Assembly: GCA_023264015.1 (NCBI GenBank)
Contig: JALQTJ010000013.1
Span: 1 to 35,044, forward strand
DNA: 35,044 bases
Direction of reading: 5' to 3'
From: Flavobacteriaceae bacterium
GTDB taxonomy: Bacteria > Bacteroidota > Bacteroidia > Flavobacteriales > Flavobacteriaceae
Position numbers and translations under genes: made by a program. The notes below the pieces were generated by a model. It had not been told where the DNA came from. It saw only the letters and a program-made list of their open reading frames with translations, and ran no database searches. Shown here in pieces: positions 2,772-16,156 of the stretch (its first letter is position 1; the number at the start of each line of letters is the position of its first letter).

Positions 2772-3710
2772 ATGGAGAGATTCGACCATATCAATGACTT
2801 CACGAGCACTAAAGGAACCGTTCTGACGATCGGAACCTTCGACGGTGTACATATTGGCCATCAAAAAATCATTGAACAGGTGGTTCAAGTGGCCGGTAAA
2901 GAACACTTAAATCCCTGTCTTCTCACCTTCTCACCACATCCAAGAGAAGTGTTGCAAAAAGATACGCATATCAAGATGCTTTCTACCCTAGAAGAGAAGG
3001 CTGATCGATTGCAATCCTTGGGGCTACAAAGCATGGTCGTACACCCTTTTTCTAAAGAATTCTCAAGGCTTACTGCACGCGAATATGTAGAGGACGTCTT
3101 AGTGTCAAAATTAAAGGTCAAACACCTGATTGTAGGATACGATCACCGTTTCGGTCGCAACCGAGAGGCAGACATAGTAGACCTTCATTATTTCGCTAAG
3201 CGCTTTGATTTTAAAGTAACCGAAATCGAAGCACAAGACATCGATGATGTAGCGGTGAGCTCCACTAAAATTCGAACAGCACTCTCTGAGGGCGTGGTTC
3301 ACAAAGCCAATCAGTACCTCGGTTACCACTACGGTATAAGCGGTACTGTTTCAAAAGGTAAGGGTTTGGGCAAAACACTTGGTTTTCCGACTGCCAATCT
3401 TGAGCAGATCGATCCGAAGAAACTACTGCCCGCAAATGGCGTTTACATCATAAGCGTCAACCTAGACGGAATATCGGTAAAAGGAATGATGAATATCGGT
3501 ATCAATCCAACGGTTAATCAAGGTGGATTACATGCTGAGGTACATCTTCTTGATTTCGATTCAGACCTTTACAACAGGCGCATAAGCGTTTCTTTTCACA
3601 AGCGTCTTCGAAGCGAAAAACGCTTTGAATCTCTAAAAGCACTTAGTGCCCAACTCCATGAGGATAAATCAATGACGCTTAAGTACTTCAAAGAAGGGCT
3701 TCTTTCTTAG
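2772..3710 (+). CDS. ribF: Bifunctional riboflavin kinase / FAD synthetase
   Basis: Phosphorylates riboflavin to FMN and adenylates FMN to FAD. The N-terminal FAD-synthetase (nucleotidyltransferase) domain carries TIGTFDGVHIGHQKII, a HxGH-type motif, and the C-terminal riboflavin-kinase domain carries GKGLGKTLGFPTANLE and GVYIISV. I prefer ATG 2772 (312 aa) over TTG 2763, because the protein then begins MERFDHINDF like other RibF proteins. It lies 17 nt after pth. Confidence 0.94.
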   Translation: MERFDHINDFTSTKGTVLTIGTFDGVHIGHQKIIEQVVQVAGKEHLNPCLLTFSPHPREVLQKDTHIKMLSTLEEKADRLQSLGLQSMVVHPFSKEFSRLTAREYVEDVLVSKLKVKHLIVGYDHRFGRNREADIVDLHYFAKRFDFKVTEIEAQDIDDVAVSSTKIRTALSEGVVHKANQYLGYHYGISGTVSKGKGLGKTLGFPTANLEQIDPKKLLPANGVYIISVNLDGISVKGMMNIGINPTVNQGGLHAEVHLLDFDSDLYNRRISVSFHKRLRSEKRFESLKALSAQLHEDKSMTLKYFKEGLLS

Positions 3711-3717
3711 GTTTTTC

Positions 3718-3725
3718 TACTTTTG
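3718..3725 (+). promoter_or_regulatory. -7 element for the serS operon
   Basis: TACTTTTG fits TAnnTTTG and lies 16 nt before the serS ATG. It would start the five-gene run serS to the hydroxyacid dehydrogenase, with a very short leader. Confidence 0.58.
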
Positions 3726-3741
3726 CTGCAAATTCTAATTC

Positions 3742-5013
3742 ATGCTTGAACTTCACACCCTACGCGAGTCTAAAGAAACAGTGGTGGCCGCTCTTAAAAA
3801 AAGAGGACTTGATGCTGCTGAATCCATCGATGCATTACTTGCATTAGACGAATCGCGCCGATCACTTCAAGCAGAGCTAGATACTGTTTTAGCCGAAGCT
3901 AATCACTTGGCGAAAGAGATAGGTATGCTCTTTAAGGCCGGTAAAGGTGCTGAAGCAGAAGCACTAAAAACCAAAACAGCCGACCTCAAAGAGCGCTCTA
4001 AAGTGCTTCAAGAAGCGCTGAACGAAAAGGCCGAGGCGTTAACCGATGCCTTGTACCACCTTCCGAATACCCCACACGAATCAGTTCCTTCGGGAAAAAA
4101 CGAAACGGATAACAAAGAAGTTTTCAGCGCAGCTGAACTCCCTGAATTGGATCAAGAGGCGCTTCCGCATTGGGAATTAGCTAAAAAATACGACCTGATT
4201 GATTTTGAATTAGGGGTGAAAATTGCAGGTGCCGGATTTCCGGTGTATAAAGGAAAAGGCGCACGCTTACAACGAGCGCTCATAAGCTTTTTCTTAGACA
4301 AGAATATAGAAGCCGGATATCAAGAAATACAACCTCCTCATGTGGTAAATGCCGCTTCGGGCTACGGCACGGGTCAATTACCAGATAAAGAAGGTCAGAT
4401 GTACCACATCACCAACGACGACCTATACCTTATCCCGACTGCTGAGGTCCCTGTAACGAATATTTTGAGAGATGTCATGCTCAACGAATCTGAGCTTCCG
4501 ATTGCAATGACTGCCTATACCCCATGTTTCCGCCGCGAAGCCGGTAGCTACGGCTCTGACGTGCGCGGATTGAATCGCTTGCATCAGTTCGACAAGGTAG
4601 AGATTGTGCGCGTTGAGAAACCTGAAAATTCATACCAAGCCCTAGAGGGTATGGTTGAACATGTCAAAACCCTACTTGAAGCCCTTGAGCTGCCCTACCG
4701 CATCTTACAATTATGTGGTGGAGACCTTGGCTTTACCTCTGCGCTAACCTATGACTTTGAGGTCTACTCGGCCGCCCAAAAAAGATGGTTAGAAATCAGC
4801 TCGGTTTCAAACTTCGAGACCTTTCAAGCGAATCGCTTGAAGCTTAGAATCAAAGACCATCAAGGAAAGAAAACCCTAGCACACACCCTAAATGGAAGTG
4901 CACTTGCACTGCCAAGGGTTCTAGCGGCTTTACTTGAAAACCATCAAACCTCTGATGGGATATACATACCAAAGGCACTAGTGCCTTACACCCATTTTGA
5001 GCGGATTGATTAA
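3742..5013 (+). CDS. serS: Seryl-tRNA synthetase
   Basis: Class II aminoacyl-tRNA synthetase that charges tRNA-Ser (and tRNA-Sec where present). At 423 aa the length is standard. Residues about 25-105 form the charged, heptad-rich coiled-coil arm that grips the tRNA long variable arm. Motif 2 is seen in CFRREAGSYGSDVRGLNRLH and motif 3 in TLNGSALALPRVLAALLEN near the C-terminus. DUF4286 follows after 2 nt, starting an operon with overlapping genes. Confidence 0.97.
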   Translation: MLELHTLRESKETVVAALKKRGLDAAESIDALLALDESRRSLQAELDTVLAEANHLAKEIGMLFKAGKGAEAEALKTKTADLKERSKVLQEALNEKAEALTDALYHLPNTPHESVPSGKNETDNKEVFSAAELPELDQEALPHWELAKKYDLIDFELGVKIAGAGFPVYKGKGARLQRALISFFLDKNIEAGYQEIQPPHVVNAASGYGTGQLPDKEGQMYHITNDDLYLIPTAEVPVTNILRDVMLNESELPIAMTAYTPCFRREAGSYGSDVRGLNRLHQFDKVEIVRVEKPENSYQALEGMVEHVKTLLEALELPYRILQLCGGDLGFTSALTYDFEVYSAAQKRWLEISSVSNFETFQANRLKLRIKDHQGKKTLAHTLNGSALALPRVLAALLENHQTSDGIYIPKALVPYTHFERID

Positions 5014-5015
5014 GG

Positions 5016-5345
5016 ATGGTTATTTACAACGTCACCACGCATATAGACAAACACATTGAAGAAGAATGGGTGGCGCACATGCGTGAGACCCATATTCCAA
5101 TGATGCTCTCGACCGGTAAGTTTAGAGAAGCTACATTCACTCGAATTCTATCTGAACAAGAAGAAGACGGTCTGAACTTTTCAGTGCAATACCTCTGCCC
5201 TAACAAAGCCACTTTAGATCATTTTTTGGCCGAAGAACATCCGCGTTTCGAGCGTCAACTTCACGACCTATTCGGCACCAAAGCCTTGACCTTTTCTACA
5301 GAACTTGAGCTTATTGGAAGAGCCCAATTAAATGTCCCCTCGTGA
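5016..5345 (+). CDS. DUF4286 family protein
   Basis: A 109-aa protein beginning MVIYNVTTHID and containing HIPMMLSTGKF, typical of the DUF4286 family found mainly in Bacteroidota. It is probably a ferredoxin-like, dimeric alpha/beta fold of unknown function (fold is inference). There is no signal peptide or membrane segment. It starts 2 nt after serS and its stop overlaps the GTG start of rsmA by 4 nt, so it should be translated with both. Its constant association with rsmA in this phylum hints at a translation-related role, but nothing in the sequence shows one. Confidence 0.88.
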   Translation: MVIYNVTTHIDKHIEEEWVAHMRETHIPMMLSTGKFREATFTRILSEQEEDGLNFSVQYLCPNKATLDHFLAEEHPRFERQLHDLFGTKALTFSTELELIGRAQLNVPS

Positions 5346-6154
5346 GCGGAAGGCACCATAATTCTGACGGCGTTCGTCCAAAAAAACAGCTCGGTCAACA
5401 TTTCTTAACTAGTGATGTCATCGCTGAGCGCATTGCCAACACCCTGAGTCTTGAAGGTTATAAACATGTCATTGAAATCGGACCAGGAACAGGGGTATTA
5501 ACAAAATTCCTTGTCCAAAAACCCATTGAACTTGAAGCTATAGATCTAGATGAAGAATCTATTGCCTATTTAAATTCCACATTCAAAAACACGTATGAGC
5601 CGGCCAATTTGAATGTCCGATATGCGGATATCCTAAAATTGGACTTAGATACTGTATTTCCAGGTCATCCCATCGCTATTACGGGTAACTATCCCTATAA
5701 CATCTCTTCACAGATCGTTTTTAAAATGCTCGAACATAGAAACCGTGTGGCAGAATTTACGGGTATGTTTCAAAAAGAGGTCGCGAAAAGAATCTGCGAA
5801 AAACCAGGCTCAAAAACCTACGGTATATTGAGTGTTCTCGTTCAAGCCTATTACGAGGCCCACTATGACTTTACCGTTCATCCTGAAGTCTTTAATCCGC
5901 CGCCAAAAGTACAATCAGGAGTGATCGTTCTTAAGCGTAAAAGTACTATCGAATTGTCCTGCAGCTATAACACCTTAAAACTGGTGGTGAAAACGGCCTT
6001 TAATCAAAGGCGCAAGACGCTGAGAAATAGTCTAAAAGGTTTAAACATTCCATTAAGTCTTACAGAAGATGCTATCTTTGATCTGCGACCCGAACAGCTT
6101 GCTGTGGACGCGTTTGTAGAACTAAGCACACGCATTGAACATGGAGCCCTTTAA
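5342..6154 (+). CDS. rsmA: 16S rRNA dimethyladenosine transferase
   Basis: KsgA/RsmA methylates the two adjacent adenosines in helix 45 of 16S rRNA late in small-subunit assembly. The 270 aa include KKQLGQHFLTSDVIAERIA, the SAM-binding VIEIGPGTGVLTKFL, and the catalytic NYPYNISSQIVFKML (the NxPY-type motif). The C-terminal NQRRKTLRNSLKGL is also typical. The start is GTG 5342, overlapping the previous stop by 4 nt. Its 3' end overlaps mgtE by 14 nt. Confidence 0.96.
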   Translation: MSGRHHNSDGVRPKKQLGQHFLTSDVIAERIANTLSLEGYKHVIEIGPGTGVLTKFLVQKPIELEAIDLDEESIAYLNSTFKNTYEPANLNVRYADILKLDLDTVFPGHPIAITGNYPYNISSQIVFKMLEHRNRVAEFTGMFQKEVAKRICEKPGSKTYGILSVLVQAYYEAHYDFTVHPEVFNPPPKVQSGVIVLKRKSTIELSCSYNTLKLVVKTAFNQRRKTLRNSLKGLNIPLSLTEDAIFDLRPEQLAVDAFVELSTRIEHGAL

Positions 6155-10404: not shown

Positions 10405-10501
10405 TACTAAATGCGCTTTTGGTTCAAAATAGGAGCGGTCTTGATCACAAAAGGGGCGTAAAATGTTGTAGTTTAGAGTGCTTGACCTCCAGTCAGCGGC
10501 T

Positions 10502-11512
10502 ATGAAAAGAACTTTACTCGAATTTACAGATTCAGGCATTTATTGTCCGAAAGCAGACGTGTATTTAGATCCTTGGAAACCTGTGTCAAAGGCGCTTATT
10601 TCCCATGCGCATGCAGATCACAGTCGATGGGGACACCAACACTATATTTCACATGAGTATAGCACTCCTATCATCAAACATCGATTGGGAGGAGTAGAAA
10701 TCGCCTCGAAGAAATGGGGAGAGCGTTTTTCTATTCAAGGTGTTCATTTCTCGTTTCATCCGGCCGGACACATTGTAGGTTCTTCACAAATCAAGGTAGA
10801 GTACAAAGGTGAAACTTGGGTCTTTTCAGGAGATTACAAAACCTATGACGACGGATTTACCACTCCCTTTGAGCCTCAAAAATGCGATGTGTTCATTACC
10901 GAGTGTACCTTCGGAATACCAGCATTTAAATGGCCCAGTCAAGAGCTTGTTTTTGATCAGATCCAACAGTGGTGGAAAGAAAATGCAGAAAAAGGTATCA
11001 CTTCGGTACTCTTCGGATACTCCTTAGGAAAAGCACAAAGGCTAAGCTTTCATCTTCGTGAAGAGGTGGGGCCCCTCTTATTGCATCCCGTGATTCACGC
11101 TCACAACGAAGTGGTGGGTTCCGTCAAACCGTTACCTCACCATCAAAAACTTGACAAAAACTTAGACCCAAAAAAATTAAAGACAGCACTAATTCTTGCT
11201 CCTCCAAATGCTCAAGACGCCAGTTGGTTGAAAAAATGGATGCCCTATAAAACCGCGGCAGCAAGTGGATGGATGGCCACGCGTGGAGCAAGGCGGAGAA
11301 GAGGATACGACACAGGTTTTGTACTGAGTGATCACGCTGATTTTTACGAGCTAACCAATGCCATTAAAGCCACAGAGGCACAACACGTCATCTGCACTCA
11401 TGGATACACCGATATCTATGCGCGCTTTTTGAATTCAAAAGGAATTTACGCGACTACAGCAGACACGCCTTTTGAAGACGAACCGGTCACTACAGAAGAG
11501 AGAACATCATGA
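10502..11512 (+). CDS. Ligase-associated MBL-fold DNA exonuclease
   Basis: A metallo-beta-lactamase/beta-CASP-like nuclease of the Bacteroidota and Proteobacteria repair cluster that also carries an ATP-dependent ligase, an Lhr helicase and a phosphoesterase. With ATG 10502 the protein has 336 aa and begins MKRTLLEFTDSGIYCP, like its relatives; GTG 10478 would add eight residues. The metal motif SHAHADH has H35, H37, D39 and H40, with further ligands in HPAGHIVGS, FSGDYK and LSDHADF. The stop overlaps the ligase ATG by 4 nt. Confidence 0.93.
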   Translation: MKRTLLEFTDSGIYCPKADVYLDPWKPVSKALISHAHADHSRWGHQHYISHEYSTPIIKHRLGGVEIASKKWGERFSIQGVHFSFHPAGHIVGSSQIKVEYKGETWVFSGDYKTYDDGFTTPFEPQKCDVFITECTFGIPAFKWPSQELVFDQIQQWWKENAEKGITSVLFGYSLGKAQRLSFHLREEVGPLLLHPVIHAHNEVVGSVKPLPHHQKLDKNLDPKKLKTALILAPPNAQDASWLKKWMPYKTAAASGWMATRGARRRRGYDTGFVLSDHADFYELTNAIKATEAQHVICTHGYTDIYARFLNSKGIYATTADTPFEDEPVTTEERTS

Positions 11513-13104
11513 ATACTTTTGCTCAGCTCATCGCTTCACTTGACCAGACGACCAAAACCAGCGAAAAAATTGGGGCGCTTGCGGCCTACTTCGATACGGC
11601 CACCAATCAAGACAAGGTTTGGGTAATTGCATTACTCTCAGGAAGAAGACCCCCTAGAGCAATCAATACGCGTTTGCTTCGCGAATGGGCGGCAGAGCTT
11701 GCTCAAATAGAACCTTGGCTCTTTGAAGAGACCTATCACATCGTTGGAGACCTTGCAGAAACCATCGCCCTGCTTGTTCACAATGCTCAGCCAAAAAAGT
11801 CAAGCACTACCCCCCTTTGTAGCATTTTAAACCGACTGCATTCTCTTAAGACTGAAGATGAAACTGAAAAGAAATCCTATGTACTCAGTTTCTGGAAGCA
11901 AAACGACTATTTAAGCTGCTTCGCCTTCACCAAATTTTTTACTGGAGGATTCAGGCTTGGGGTGAGCCAACGACTCATGACCAAAGCCTTAGAAAAGAGC
12001 ACGGGAATTCCAGCTGATGAACTCGCTATGAAACTCATGGGTGATTGGGATCCGCGCACGATAAGTTTCGACGAACTTGTACTCTCTAAAGTGGATGCTG
12101 CTCAAGAAGCAAAGCCTTATCCGTTCTTTCTCGCTTACCCGCTCGAAGAAGCATTTGATGCACTCGGAGAGGTGACTCAGTGGGCGATAGAACACAAATG
12201 GGATGGAATAAGAGCGCAACTCGTATATCGAGGTGGAGCTGTATATCTATGGTCTCGTGGAGAGGAACTTGTCAACCATCAATTTCCTGAAATCGAAGCA
12301 CTTCAAGATCAATTGCCTGTCAGCTGCGTATTAGATGGTGAACTTTTGGCACATGACAAAAACAGGCCTTTATCTTTTGGTGCTCTACAAAAGCGCCTAG
12401 GAAGAAAGAACGTTAGCGAAAAGCTACTAGCTGAGTACCCTGTAGTCTTCAAAGCGTACGACCTTTTAGAATACGACCTGAAAGACCTAAGAAGCCAAAC
12501 CTATGAGGCGCGAAGAACCCTATTAGAACGCTTCAATTTTAACGGAAAACTGTTACTTTCAGAACGCATCATGCCGCAGCATTGGAATCAAGTTAGGGCC
12601 GAGAAAGAACGCGCTTCTGAAGTTAGAAGTGAAGGATTAATGCTCAAACGCCTCGATTCAATATACCAAGTAGGGCGAAAGAAAGGGGGTTGGTACAAGT
12701 CGAAGGTAGATCCGATGACCATCGATGCTGTACTCACCTTTGCGATGAGAGGGCATGGAAGGCGAAGTAATTTATACACCGACTTTACCTTTGGACTCTG
12801 GCGTGAAAATGAAGAAGGAATAGCTGAGCTGGTGACATTCGCCAAAGCGTATTCTGGACTAACCGATAAAGAATTTGCAGCGGTAAATCAATGGATAAAG
12901 AAGAATACAGTAGCGCGCTTTGGGCCTGTGCGTCAGGTAAATCCAGAACTGGTGTTTGAAATCGCCTTTGAGGGTATCTCAAAATCAGGACGTCACAAGA
13001 GCGGATACGCGACCCGTTTCCCTAGAATTTTGCGCTGGCGTACCGATAAAAGCGCAAAAGAAGCGAATAGCATCAGTGATCTAGAATCTTTGGTAATCGA
13101 ATGA
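11509..13104 (+). CDS. ATP-dependent DNA ligase (ligase-associated repair operon)
   Basis: Seals DNA nicks with ATP, in addition to the NAD-dependent LigA expected elsewhere in the genome. The 531 aa comprise an N-terminal DNA-binding domain (about 1-205), then the nucleotidyltransferase domain with the adenylation motif EHKWDGIRAQ (Lys230), LDGELLAHD and SEGLMLKRLDS, and an OB domain with WYKSKVDPMTID (motif V) and FPRILRWRTDK near the end. It overlaps the exonuclease and the helicase by 4 nt on either side, so the set is translated from one mRNA. Confidence 0.95.
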   Translation: MNTFAQLIASLDQTTKTSEKIGALAAYFDTATNQDKVWVIALLSGRRPPRAINTRLLREWAAELAQIEPWLFEETYHIVGDLAETIALLVHNAQPKKSSTTPLCSILNRLHSLKTEDETEKKSYVLSFWKQNDYLSCFAFTKFFTGGFRLGVSQRLMTKALEKSTGIPADELAMKLMGDWDPRTISFDELVLSKVDAAQEAKPYPFFLAYPLEEAFDALGEVTQWAIEHKWDGIRAQLVYRGGAVYLWSRGEELVNHQFPEIEALQDQLPVSCVLDGELLAHDKNRPLSFGALQKRLGRKNVSEKLLAEYPVVFKAYDLLEYDLKDLRSQTYEARRTLLERFNFNGKLLLSERIMPQHWNQVRAEKERASEVRSEGLMLKRLDSIYQVGRKKGGWYKSKVDPMTIDAVLTFAMRGHGRRSNLYTDFTFGLWRENEEGIAELVTFAKAYSGLTDKEFAAVNQWIKKNTVARFGPVRQVNPELVFEIAFEGISKSGRHKSGYATRFPRILRWRTDKSAKEANSISDLESLVIE

Positions 13105-15125
13105 TCTCTTACTCAGCCATATCGTCCTTCAAAGCGCTAGGTTACACTCCCCACGATTTTCAATTAGAGTGCTGGAAGAAGACCTCTGCTGGCATGAATG
13201 GACTACTCATGGCTCCTACTGGTTCAGGAAAAACCTACGCCCTAGGCTTACCCATGCTCTTAAAAGCCGATCCGAGACAAAAGCGTTTGCAGGGTATCTG
13301 GATTACCCCTTTAAGGGCCTTATCTCACGAAATTTATGCAGCGCTGGAACGAGCCAACCAAACCTTGAATTTAGGACTAGACATTGCATTGCGAAATGCA
13401 GACACTTCTCCTAAAGAGCGCCAGAAGCAACAGCGGCAATCGCCGCATATTTTGGTAACAACACCTGAGAGTTTACACCTGTTATTGGCCGCTAAAGGAT
13501 ACCCCAAATACTTAGGCGCTTTAACAATGACTGTCATTGATGAATGGCACGATTTAATGGGAAGCAAAAGAGGAGTCCTCATAGAATTGGCCTTATCAAG
13601 ACTGAAGCGTATCAATCAAGAGCTAATGATCTGGGGGATTTCAGCCACTTTAAAGCATCCCAAACAAGCCATTGAAGTATTAGCGGGCAATGAGCATATT
13701 CAAAATGAATGGACGCTTATTAAAGCTCAATGGGAAAAACATATTGAGATTCGATCAGTACTACCTGAGACCATGGAGCGTTTTCCGTGGCGCGGTCATC
13801 TAGGAATCCATCTTATCGAACAGGTCATCCCCTTGATTGAGGCCCATAAAACCGTTCTTATTTTCACCAATACCAGAAGTCAATGCGAGATATGGTATCA
13901 GAAAATACTCGAAACAGCTCCTGAATATGCGGGGCAGATTGCGATGCATCACAGTTCTATCGACAAATCGACTAGACTTTGGGTAGAACAGGCAATTAAA
14001 AATGAATCGCTTAAAGCAGTGGTTTGTACATCAAGTCTCGATCTAGGCGTTGACTTTGCACCGGTTGAGGCCATCGTTCAGATTGGAGGGCCAAAGGGAA
14101 TAGCCCGTTTTATGCAAAGGGCCGGCAGAAGTGGACATCAACCAGGAGCTAAAAGCATAGTGTACTTTGTACCCACTCATGCCATTGAACTTATAGAGGC
14201 TGCCGCGCTTAGGAGAGCTATAGCCGAACACCTCATTGAAAACCCTACCCCCTATTTACTGTGTTACGACGTTCTTATTCAGTACTGTTGCACATTAGCG
14301 GTGTCAGAAGGATATCATCCGCACAAGGTCTTCGAAGAGGTACGATCTACTCACTGTTTTCAGTCCATGACGATAGACGAATGGAAATGGATTCAAAATT
14401 TTCTCGAGTATGGAAGCCAAAGCCTAGCAAGCTATGACGAGTACAAAAAAGTAACGCGAAGCGATGATCAGCGTATGGTAATCGAAAATCGTGGAGTGGC
14501 TATGCGTCATCGACTGCAGATCGGCACCATTGTGTCCGATGCTTCTCTACAAGTAGTTTTTCAAAGTGGAGGTTATATCGGTACGGTTGAAGAGTGGTTT
14601 GCCTCGCAACTTAAGGCTGGTGATCTCTTTACATTCGCAGGCCGAACACTTGAATTTATCCGTTTAAAGGAGCTCAAGGTTATCGTTAGGCGCTCTTCTT
14701 CAAAACCCACTAAAGTTCCTTCATGGATGGGCGGACGGCTTTCGTTTACCTCTGAAATGTCTTGGCTTTTAAAAAGCAGTCTGCAACAAGCACTAGATCC
14801 GAGTCCTATTCAAGATCCAGAACTTCAGGCTTTACGTCCCATTTTTGAGCGCCAAACCAAAGAGAGTTATCTTCCGAAAACGGACGAGTTTTTAGTTGAA
14901 GTATTTCAAACTCGAGAGGGTCATCACCACGTTTTCTATCCATTTGAAGGACGCTTTGTTCATGAAGCCATGGCGAGTCTATTGGCCTATCGTATCAGCC
15001 TTTTGGGTCCTTTGAGTTGCACCCTTGCCTATAACGATTACGGTTTCGAAGTTTTGAGCGATCAGCCCATAGCCATTGAAACCATTTGGGATAATAACTT
15101 ATGGGACACCAAACATTTGAACTAG
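13101..15125 (+). CDS. Lhr-type DEXH helicase, truncated by in-frame TAG
   Basis: An Lhr-Core-like ATP-dependent 3'-to-5' DNA helicase of the ligase-associated operon. Visible motifs are motif I APTGSGKT (38-45), DEWH (147-150), ISATL, and motif VI QRAGRSGH (339-346). A winged-helix and beta-barrel region follows, ending in GPLSCTLAYNDYGFEVLSD. The frame stops at TAG 15123-15125 after 674 codons, whereas relatives run to roughly 800 aa. The same reading frame continues after the stop for 10 codons and then the ORF at 15156-15527, which carries the missing C-terminal segment. The gene overlaps the ligase by 4 nt. Confidence 0.93.
   Translation: MISYSAISSFKALGYTPHDFQLECWKKTSAGMNGLLMAPTGSGKTYALGLPMLLKADPRQKRLQGIWITPLRALSHEIYAALERANQTLNLGLDIALRNADTSPKERQKQQRQSPHILVTTPESLHLLLAAKGYPKYLGALTMTVIDEWHDLMGSKRGVLIELALSRLKRINQELMIWGISATLKHPKQAIEVLAGNEHIQNEWTLIKAQWEKHIEIRSVLPETMERFPWRGHLGIHLIEQVIPLIEAHKTVLIFTNTRSQCEIWYQKILETAPEYAGQIAMHHSSIDKSTRLWVEQAIKNESLKAVVCTSSLDLGVDFAPVEAIVQIGGPKGIARFMQRAGRSGHQPGAKSIVYFVPTHAIELIEAAALRRAIAEHLIENPTPYLLCYDVLIQYCCTLAVSEGYHPHKVFEEVRSTHCFQSMTIDEWKWIQNFLEYGSQSLASYDEYKKVTRSDDQRMVIENRGVAMRHRLQIGTIVSDASLQVVFQSGGYIGTVEEWFASQLKAGDLFTFAGRTLEFIRLKELKVIVRRSSSKPTKVPSWMGGRLSFTSEMSWLLKSSLQQALDPSPIQDPELQALRPIFERQTKESYLPKTDEFLVEVFQTREGHHHVFYPFEGRFVHEAMASLLAYRISLLGPLSCTLAYNDYGFEVLSDQPIAIETIWDNNLWDTKHLN
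15123..15125 (+). other. In-frame amber codon splitting the helicase
   Basis: TAG sits between AAC (Asn674) and GAT. Reading through gives DLYKSINITE and then the ORF starting at ATG 15156, with no frame change. The joined product would be 808 codons including the TAG, close to the usual length of ligase-associated Lhr helicases. One base change from GAG, AAG or CAG would produce it. Confidence 0.9.
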
Positions 15126-15155
15126 GATCTCTATAAGAGTATCAATATCACCGAA

Positions 15156-15527
15156 ATGTCGCGAAGAACCTTTCGAGATATAGCCGTAATCAGCCAACTC
15201 GTATTTAGCGGATACCCTACCAAAGCCATTAAGACAAAACATCTTCAAGGAAGCAGTCAACTGCTTTACGAAGTGTTCAAGTCACACGAACCCAACAATC
15301 TGCTTTACCTGCAGTCTTTACGAGAAACCTTAGAACACAAATTAGAAGAGGGAAGACTTCAACAGGCTCTAAAACGCATCAATAAGGCGAAAGTTTTAAT
15401 CGCTCATTGCGAAACACCCACCCCTTTCTCGTTTCCGATCATTACCGATAGATTGAGAGAGAAACTCTCCAATGAGAGTCTAGCCGAGCGTATTCGAAAA
15501 ATGACCGAAAAACTAGAACGTACATGA
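15156..15527 (+). CDS. C-terminal fragment of the Lhr-type helicase
   Basis: Read alone it is a 123-aa ORF starting MSRRTFRDIAVISQLVFSG. From memory of the family, this matches the conserved C-terminal part of ligase-associated Lhr helicases: a RxFRDIAxIxxLVFxGYP segment, a KTKHLQxSSxLLYxVF segment, and the closing PTPFSFP and LAERIRKMTEKLE. It is in the same frame as the upstream helicase ORF, 30 nt beyond its TAG. Whether it is made separately, by readthrough, or not at all is unknown. I see no promoter or clear ribosome site for ATG 15156. Its stop overlaps the next gene by 4 nt, which preserves the operon layout. Confidence 0.85.
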   Translation: MSRRTFRDIAVISQLVFSGYPTKAIKTKHLQGSSQLLYEVFKSHEPNNLLYLQSLRETLEHKLEEGRLQQALKRINKAKVLIAHCETPTPFSFPIITDRLREKLSNESLAERIRKMTEKLERT

Positions 15528-16156
15528 GCACCCCCTTTTCTTTTGCCAACGAAGATTTTGAGCTCGATTCGAGCGGAGCACTCTTTTGGCCTGATCAAAG
15601 CTGCTTGATTTTAAGTGATGTTCATCTTGGAAAAATTCAGCATTTTCGCAAGAATGGCGCTGCCATACCGCTACAAGCACAAGAAGAAAACTACCTGCGT
15701 CTTGAAGGTGTCATCAGTAAATACGCTCCTAAAACCTTATTGGTAATAGGTGACTTGTTCCACGCTGAATGGAATCGCGAATGGACTCTTTTTGAAGCCT
15801 TCGTCAAGAAACAACAGCTTGACATCATTCTCGTTGCCGGAAATCATGACATCATTGATCACAAACACTTTGAAGCTTTGGGCATGGAGGTGGTATCGGC
15901 CAAAAAACTCAAAAACATTCAATTTTCCCATTATCCAGAACACGACACTTCACAATTTCAAATTAGCGGCCATCTGCATCCCGCGGTTCGCATTCAGCTT
16001 GGGGCCAAAGAGAAGAGAACACTGAAGTGCTTTTACCGCAAGAACAACCAATTTGTTCTCCCATCCTTCGGGTATTTTACCGGAAACGCTCGCGTAAATA
16101 AACACGAGCTTGATGAGATCTTTGTGATTGCCGAAGATGAAGTAATTCGCATTTAG
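15524..16156 (+). CDS. pdeM: Ligase-associated metallophosphoesterase (MPE/PdeM)
   Basis: A calcineurin-like metallophosphoesterase. The Pseudomonas putida homologue MPE is a manganese-dependent single-strand DNA endonuclease from an equivalent cluster. The 210 aa hold the full set of metal motifs: D32-V-H34, G76-D77-L-F-H80, G106-N107-H108-D109 and G149-H150-L-H152-P153. It overlaps the helicase C-terminal ORF by 4 nt and closes the ligase-associated operon. mfd follows on the same strand with its own -7 element. Confidence 0.93.
   Translation: MSTPFSFANEDFELDSSGALFWPDQSCLILSDVHLGKIQHFRKNGAAIPLQAQEENYLRLEGVISKYAPKTLLVIGDLFHAEWNREWTLFEAFVKKQQLDIILVAGNHDIIDHKHFEALGMEVVSAKKLKNIQFSHYPEHDTSQFQISGHLHPAVRIQLGAKEKRTLKCFYRKNNQFVLPSFGYFTGNARVNKHELDEIFVIAEDEVIRI

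Follow-up and report, generated by a model that had tools for sequence, protein, structure and literature searches.

The window analysed here, a stretch of 35,044 nucleotides from a Flavobacteriaceae bacterium, is an entire contig (C44) of a draft genome of 1.57 Mb that comprises 148 contigs and is 97.2% complete. A tRNA-Leu gene (anticodon CAA) lies near the contig end, at 294-376 on the minus strand. Further inside, a set of four genes encoding an exonuclease, a DNA ligase, an Lhr helicase and the phosphoesterase PdeM is arranged on the plus strand, with a single in-frame stop codon in the helicase gene:

10478..11512, plus strand: ligase-associated exonuclease (TIGR04122), 411.5 bits against a cut-off of 325, first of the four-gene set
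11509..13104, plus strand: ATP-dependent DNA ligase (TIGR04120), 584.4 bits against a cut-off of 400
13101..15125, plus strand: Lhr head, 674 aa ending in TAG, with RecA1, RecA2, the winged helix and the first half of Domain 4
15123..15125, plus strand: in-frame TAG, codon 675, at a variable position that holds a sense codon in 8 intact same-genus relatives and in the 26 aligned ones
15126..15527, plus strand: Lhr tail, 133 codons plus TGA, corresponding to the mainly helical C-terminal half of Domain 4
15156-15527, plus strand: 123-aa ORF within the Lhr tail, starting at a Met codon of the family (15156)
15524..16156, plus strand: PdeM phosphoesterase (TIGR04123), 217.9 bits against a cut-off of 150

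The exonuclease, ligase and PdeM neighbours of Lhr all score above their curated cut-offs; in comparisons, the exonuclease was read from the ATG at 10505. A sequence-only reading of the window had described a helicase ORF that stops at TAG 15123-15125 after 674 codons, a frame that then continues for ten codons into a 123-aa ORF, a joined length of about 808 codons, and intact 4-nt overlaps with both neighbours. All of these are reproduced: past the TAG the frame runs through DLYKSINITE (15126-15155) into the 123-aa ORF, the gene read through comprises 808 codons plus the final stop, with the TAG roughly five-sixths into it, and both neighbours still overlap it by 4 nt, the ligase at 13101-13104 and pdeM at 15524-15527. 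A second intact Lhr was not found in the genome, where anything else matched only weakly (E 2.9e-13 at best). Between 10300 and 16300, scans for promoters and terminators returned 5 and 3 sites against shuffle means of 8.7 and 6.1, respectively, none of them within 600 bases of the stop.

Profile comparisons bear out the assignment of the gene to the ligase-associated Lhr helicases and of the 123-aa ORF to their C-terminal end, both proposed in the sequence-only reading. The head matches TIGR04121 (ligase-associated DNA damage response DEXH helicase) at model positions 7-670 of 804 with 871.2 bits, above the curated cut-off of 850, and the tail matches positions 673-803 with 142.4 bits (E 1.2e-41), with no sign that it is non-homologous; read through, the whole gene covers positions 7-803 at 1033.3 bits. 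The winged helix WH_Lhr (PF19306) is present (199.2 bits, 1-167 of 168), and DEAD_assoc (PF08494) is cut in two by the TAG, into matches to positions 1-69 and 89-191 of 191. Since a single family model accommodates head and tail in adjoining stretches, and the tail also fits DEAD_assoc, the possibility that the tail is an unrelated or chance ORF is ruled out. The Lhr translation contains GSGKT and DEWH, which we take to be SF2 motifs, and their positions are invariant in a 27-row alignment, save the Ser of GSGKT (90% or more). Because a complete Domain 4 or DEAD_assoc in a single open frame is absent, the window gene, judged from its sequence, is an interrupted member of TIGR04121, not an intact one.

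A model of the read-through protein, built with an alignment of 26 relatives, has a mean pLDDT of 80.4 and a pTM of 0.77. Most matches in a structure search span residues 1-549 and few extend beyond, among them Mycobacterium smegmatis Lhr (5v9x), which superimposes on residues 1-783 with a Z score of 40.0 and an rmsd of 3.1 (710 aligned residues). In the model, codon 675 is predicted to fall early in a short helix (673-679) that follows a loop, where the strand-rich part of Domain 4 meets the mainly helical one. A study of an archaeal Lhr2 (PMC8301817) describes Domain 4 as essential for unwinding, and its deletion from Thermococcus barophilus aLhr2 as lowering ATPase efficiency and leaving residual unwinding and annealing only; that deletion took the whole Domain 4 of an archaeal protein, whereas the window Lhr, of the ligase-associated family, loses half. 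Because the TAG falls inside a domain reported to be needed for unwinding in this archaeal relative, the 674-aa product would probably be a poor helicase with crippled unwinding.

None of the relatives sampled has the break of the window genome. The sequence-only reading had pointed to the same position in related genomes as the comparison to make, and it holds a sense codon (Glu, Ile or Ser) in all eight same-genus orthologues, which come from eight of ten further genus genomes searched and each form one unbroken frame of 816-825 codons. A single base separates the TAG from the sense codon that the nearest relative has there, and the flanking codons are intact. Among named genomes, 43 loci were collected with the head as sole query, two of which are cut by a contig edge; none of the 41 testable loci carries an internal stop in Lhr, and all reach the normal C-terminus, although two of them (JM.27 and M30B26) are probably the same sequences as G007:C22 and G005:C2 of the genus set. 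Of the named genomes found, that of isolate JM.27, a Flavobacteriaceae MAG, is the nearest relative. In two larger and overlapping samples, TIGR04121 matches over the cut-off occur in 68 of 199 genomes of the bacterial family and in 100 of 395 genomes of the phylum; a stop lies inside the match in 2 of the 68 (the window genome, G000, and G082) and, in the phylum sample, only in the window genome. For comparison, a stop interrupts 1 of the 60 matches to the partner ligase in the bacterial family at E 1e-100, and none of the 59 over the cut-off. A separate oddity of the phylum sample is found at G516:C10:234867-238628, where a single frame of 1267 codons holds two TIGR04121 matches that overlap (3-549 and 103-803), an Lhr with an apparent internal duplication.

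Within the genus sample (G000-G010), the four-gene set is all-or-nothing: 9 of the 11 genomes match all four genes, the window genome with its interrupted Lhr included, and two, G009 and G010, match none of exonuclease, ligase, Lhr and PdeM. The next gene, mfd, also gave no match in these two at E 1e-100, in a search run without a positive control. Because mfd is unmatched too and the assemblies are incomplete (75% and 89%), an assembly gap is as likely in G009 and G010 as loss of the whole operon.

How long the stop has stood was approached through substitutions, with the stop codon itself excluded from the counts. Against the nearest relative, whose head is 95% identical, head, tail and pdeM have dN/dS values of 0.074, 0.136 and 0.132, respectively. 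The point value of the tail is nearly twice that of the head, but the difference is not significant (Fisher P 0.30, all changes), and it falls within the range of five 133-codon pieces of the head (0.024-0.176). When changes are polarised with G005, the window-lineage tail has 2 nonsynonymous and 3 synonymous changes, and 3 further nonsynonymous ones are unpolarisable, giving a maximum of 5. For a tail released from selection when the two lineages parted, rates that include the head predict 22-38 nonsynonymous changes (P(<=5) 1.6e-5 or less). The weakest form of this test, which uses the tail's own 3 synonymous changes, is borderline, with an expectation of 10.5, P(<=5) = 0.05 and P(<=2) = 0.0018. 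The neutral share of the window branch has a 95% upper bound of 11-39%, depending on the counts used. Across 27 aligned sequences, the mean majority identity is 0.69 in the tail versus 0.70 in the RecA part, and 19 tail residues are invariant; the interrupted position itself is variable. The tail looks constrained by these measures, and from its few nonsynonymous changes we infer either a young stop or a tail that remains in use.

In our assessment, the most likely reading of the locus (probability about 0.68) is that an accessory repair gene suffered a nonsense mutation, either recently or at strain level. An ordinary ligase-associated Lhr-core helicase gene would have gained one nonsense substitution recently on the window lineage, with the TAG either fixed in the lineage or confined to the sampled strain. 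Ribosomes would halt at codon 675 and release a 674-aa product that retains RecA1, RecA2, the winged helix and half of Domain 4, without its mainly helical C-terminal half; such a product would at best have a weakened ATPase and would have lost unwinding, and the tail would probably be made little or not at all. Ligase, exonuclease and PdeM would still be encoded. An intact, constrained tail would also be expected were the tail still translated, which counts against a simple recent-nonsense reading. Of the origins listed in the sequence-only reading, recent nonsense mutation and base-call error are the best supported, and a natural two-piece gene and amber readthrough found no positive support.

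The second-ranked reading, rather unlikely in our judgement, is a consensus or assembly error, in which the draft carries an incorrect base and the organism itself has a sense codon in place of the TAG. It would account for a single base out of line in a locus otherwise intact, in a genome assembled into 148 contigs. Its wider consequences were sought in a survey of 419,700 bases of the genome including the window (~27%), queried with 613 G005:C2 ORFs no shorter than 150 aa; these were called mechanically, and some may not be genes. At 45% identity or more, with weaker matches dropped, 279 of the 613 ORFs matched over 105,277 aligned residues. Six alignments contain a stop: five have it within the first 32 or last 12 columns, taken as start or end differences, and the remaining one is Lhr. 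The 279 matches thus include no further mid-gene stop and none divided into two neighbouring pieces as by a frameshift, which speaks against an error-rich assembly, yet one random stop in ~105,000 aligned residues would need only a low substitution-error rate. Polarised changes in 17 gene segments, a count that omits four genes of the nearest-relative dN/dS comparison, likewise reveal no marked nonsynonymous excess on the window lineage (129 versus 125 on the sister lineage, with 497 versus 462 synonymous changes). Nor do the changes bear the marks of widespread error or oxidation, as G>T and C>A together number 26 on the window lineage against 53 on the sister, although this substitution-spectrum test is blind to a handful of errors.

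Less probable still is a working two-piece Lhr, in which the 674-aa head and a 123-aa tail, reinitiated at ATG 15156, associate and rebuild Domain 4. The ATG lies just 30 nt past the stop, the modelled break sits where a loop gives way to a short helix, at the junction of the strand-rich and mainly helical halves of Domain 4, and the apparent constraint on the tail is what a used subunit would display. However, the ATG is not a new start, as intact same-genus relatives have Met (5 of 8) or Leu (3 of 8) at this codon, and the stretch between stop and ATG is nearly identical in the intact nearest relative. The break is common to 0 of the 8 same-genus orthologues and 0 of the 41 testable loci, and the other single-TAG case in the family sample, G082, breaks elsewhere; the natural split into two subunits entertained in the sequence-only reading therefore fares poorly. 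More doubtful still is its recently born form, with a stop at the Domain 4 hinge, a tail reinitiated at a pre-existing Met codon and a helicase that still works. A two-piece Lhr, if true, would show studies of the Lhr-specific Domain 4 where it can naturally be split.

Least probable of all is that amber readthrough or a suppressor tRNA yields some full-length helicase, an option raised in the sequence-only reading: the frame is open beyond the TAG and the tail looks constrained, but RF1 is present (505.8 bits), TAG terminates 10 of the 31 other listed ORFs of the window and by this usage is a normal terminator in the genome, no other mid-gene TAG occurs among the 279 ORF matches, no tRNA with a CTA anticodon is among the 19 tRNA genes found (an incomplete set with several isotypes missing), and the RNA after the stop has no unusual fold (z -1.15). 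The same RF1, terminator usage and lack of other mid-gene TAGs rule out an alternative genetic code, and the unremarkable fold rules out structure-driven readthrough.

Two other genomes of the same bacterial family also carry a ligase-associated Lhr that is interrupted in an otherwise conserved gene, at break points different from that of the window. In G082 (L066, G082:C1:268000-278000, locus 3328-5754), a single TAG occupies codon 565 of the stretch that matches, and the frame then stays open for 245 codons. In G113 (L067, G113:C2:43000-51000), Lhr lies in two reading frames of 600 and 245 codons with the frame change in the N-terminal third, a break consistent with a frameshift; this Lhr is below the TIGR04121 cut-off and was seen among the family matches listed. 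A literature search returned no title on an interrupted ligase-associated Lhr among the matches listed, which is weak evidence of absence. If the recent nonsense mutation is the right account, the window adds one more young interrupted gene in a helicase family that is itself well known. Together with G082 and G113, it suggests that the ligase-associated Lhr is occasionally broken, here with its ligase, exonuclease and PdeM partners intact, a pattern that would fit a dispensable accessory role.

Compared with M. smegmatis Lhr (5v9x), the window protein shares the fold over modelled residues 1-783, and its tail aligns by sequence too, yet identity in the structural alignment is just 22%. The M. 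smegmatis chain 7lhl_A, linked to 5v9x by the same letters in the alignment, is 1508 aa long and has a further C-terminal region that is absent from the window Lhr. The closer likeness is to the Lhr-core type of TIGR04121, with which the joined parts share near-full model coverage, domain order and the exonuclease, ligase and PdeM neighbours; the window Lhr differs from this type in that one internal stop leaves its main ORF without the last 133 residues.
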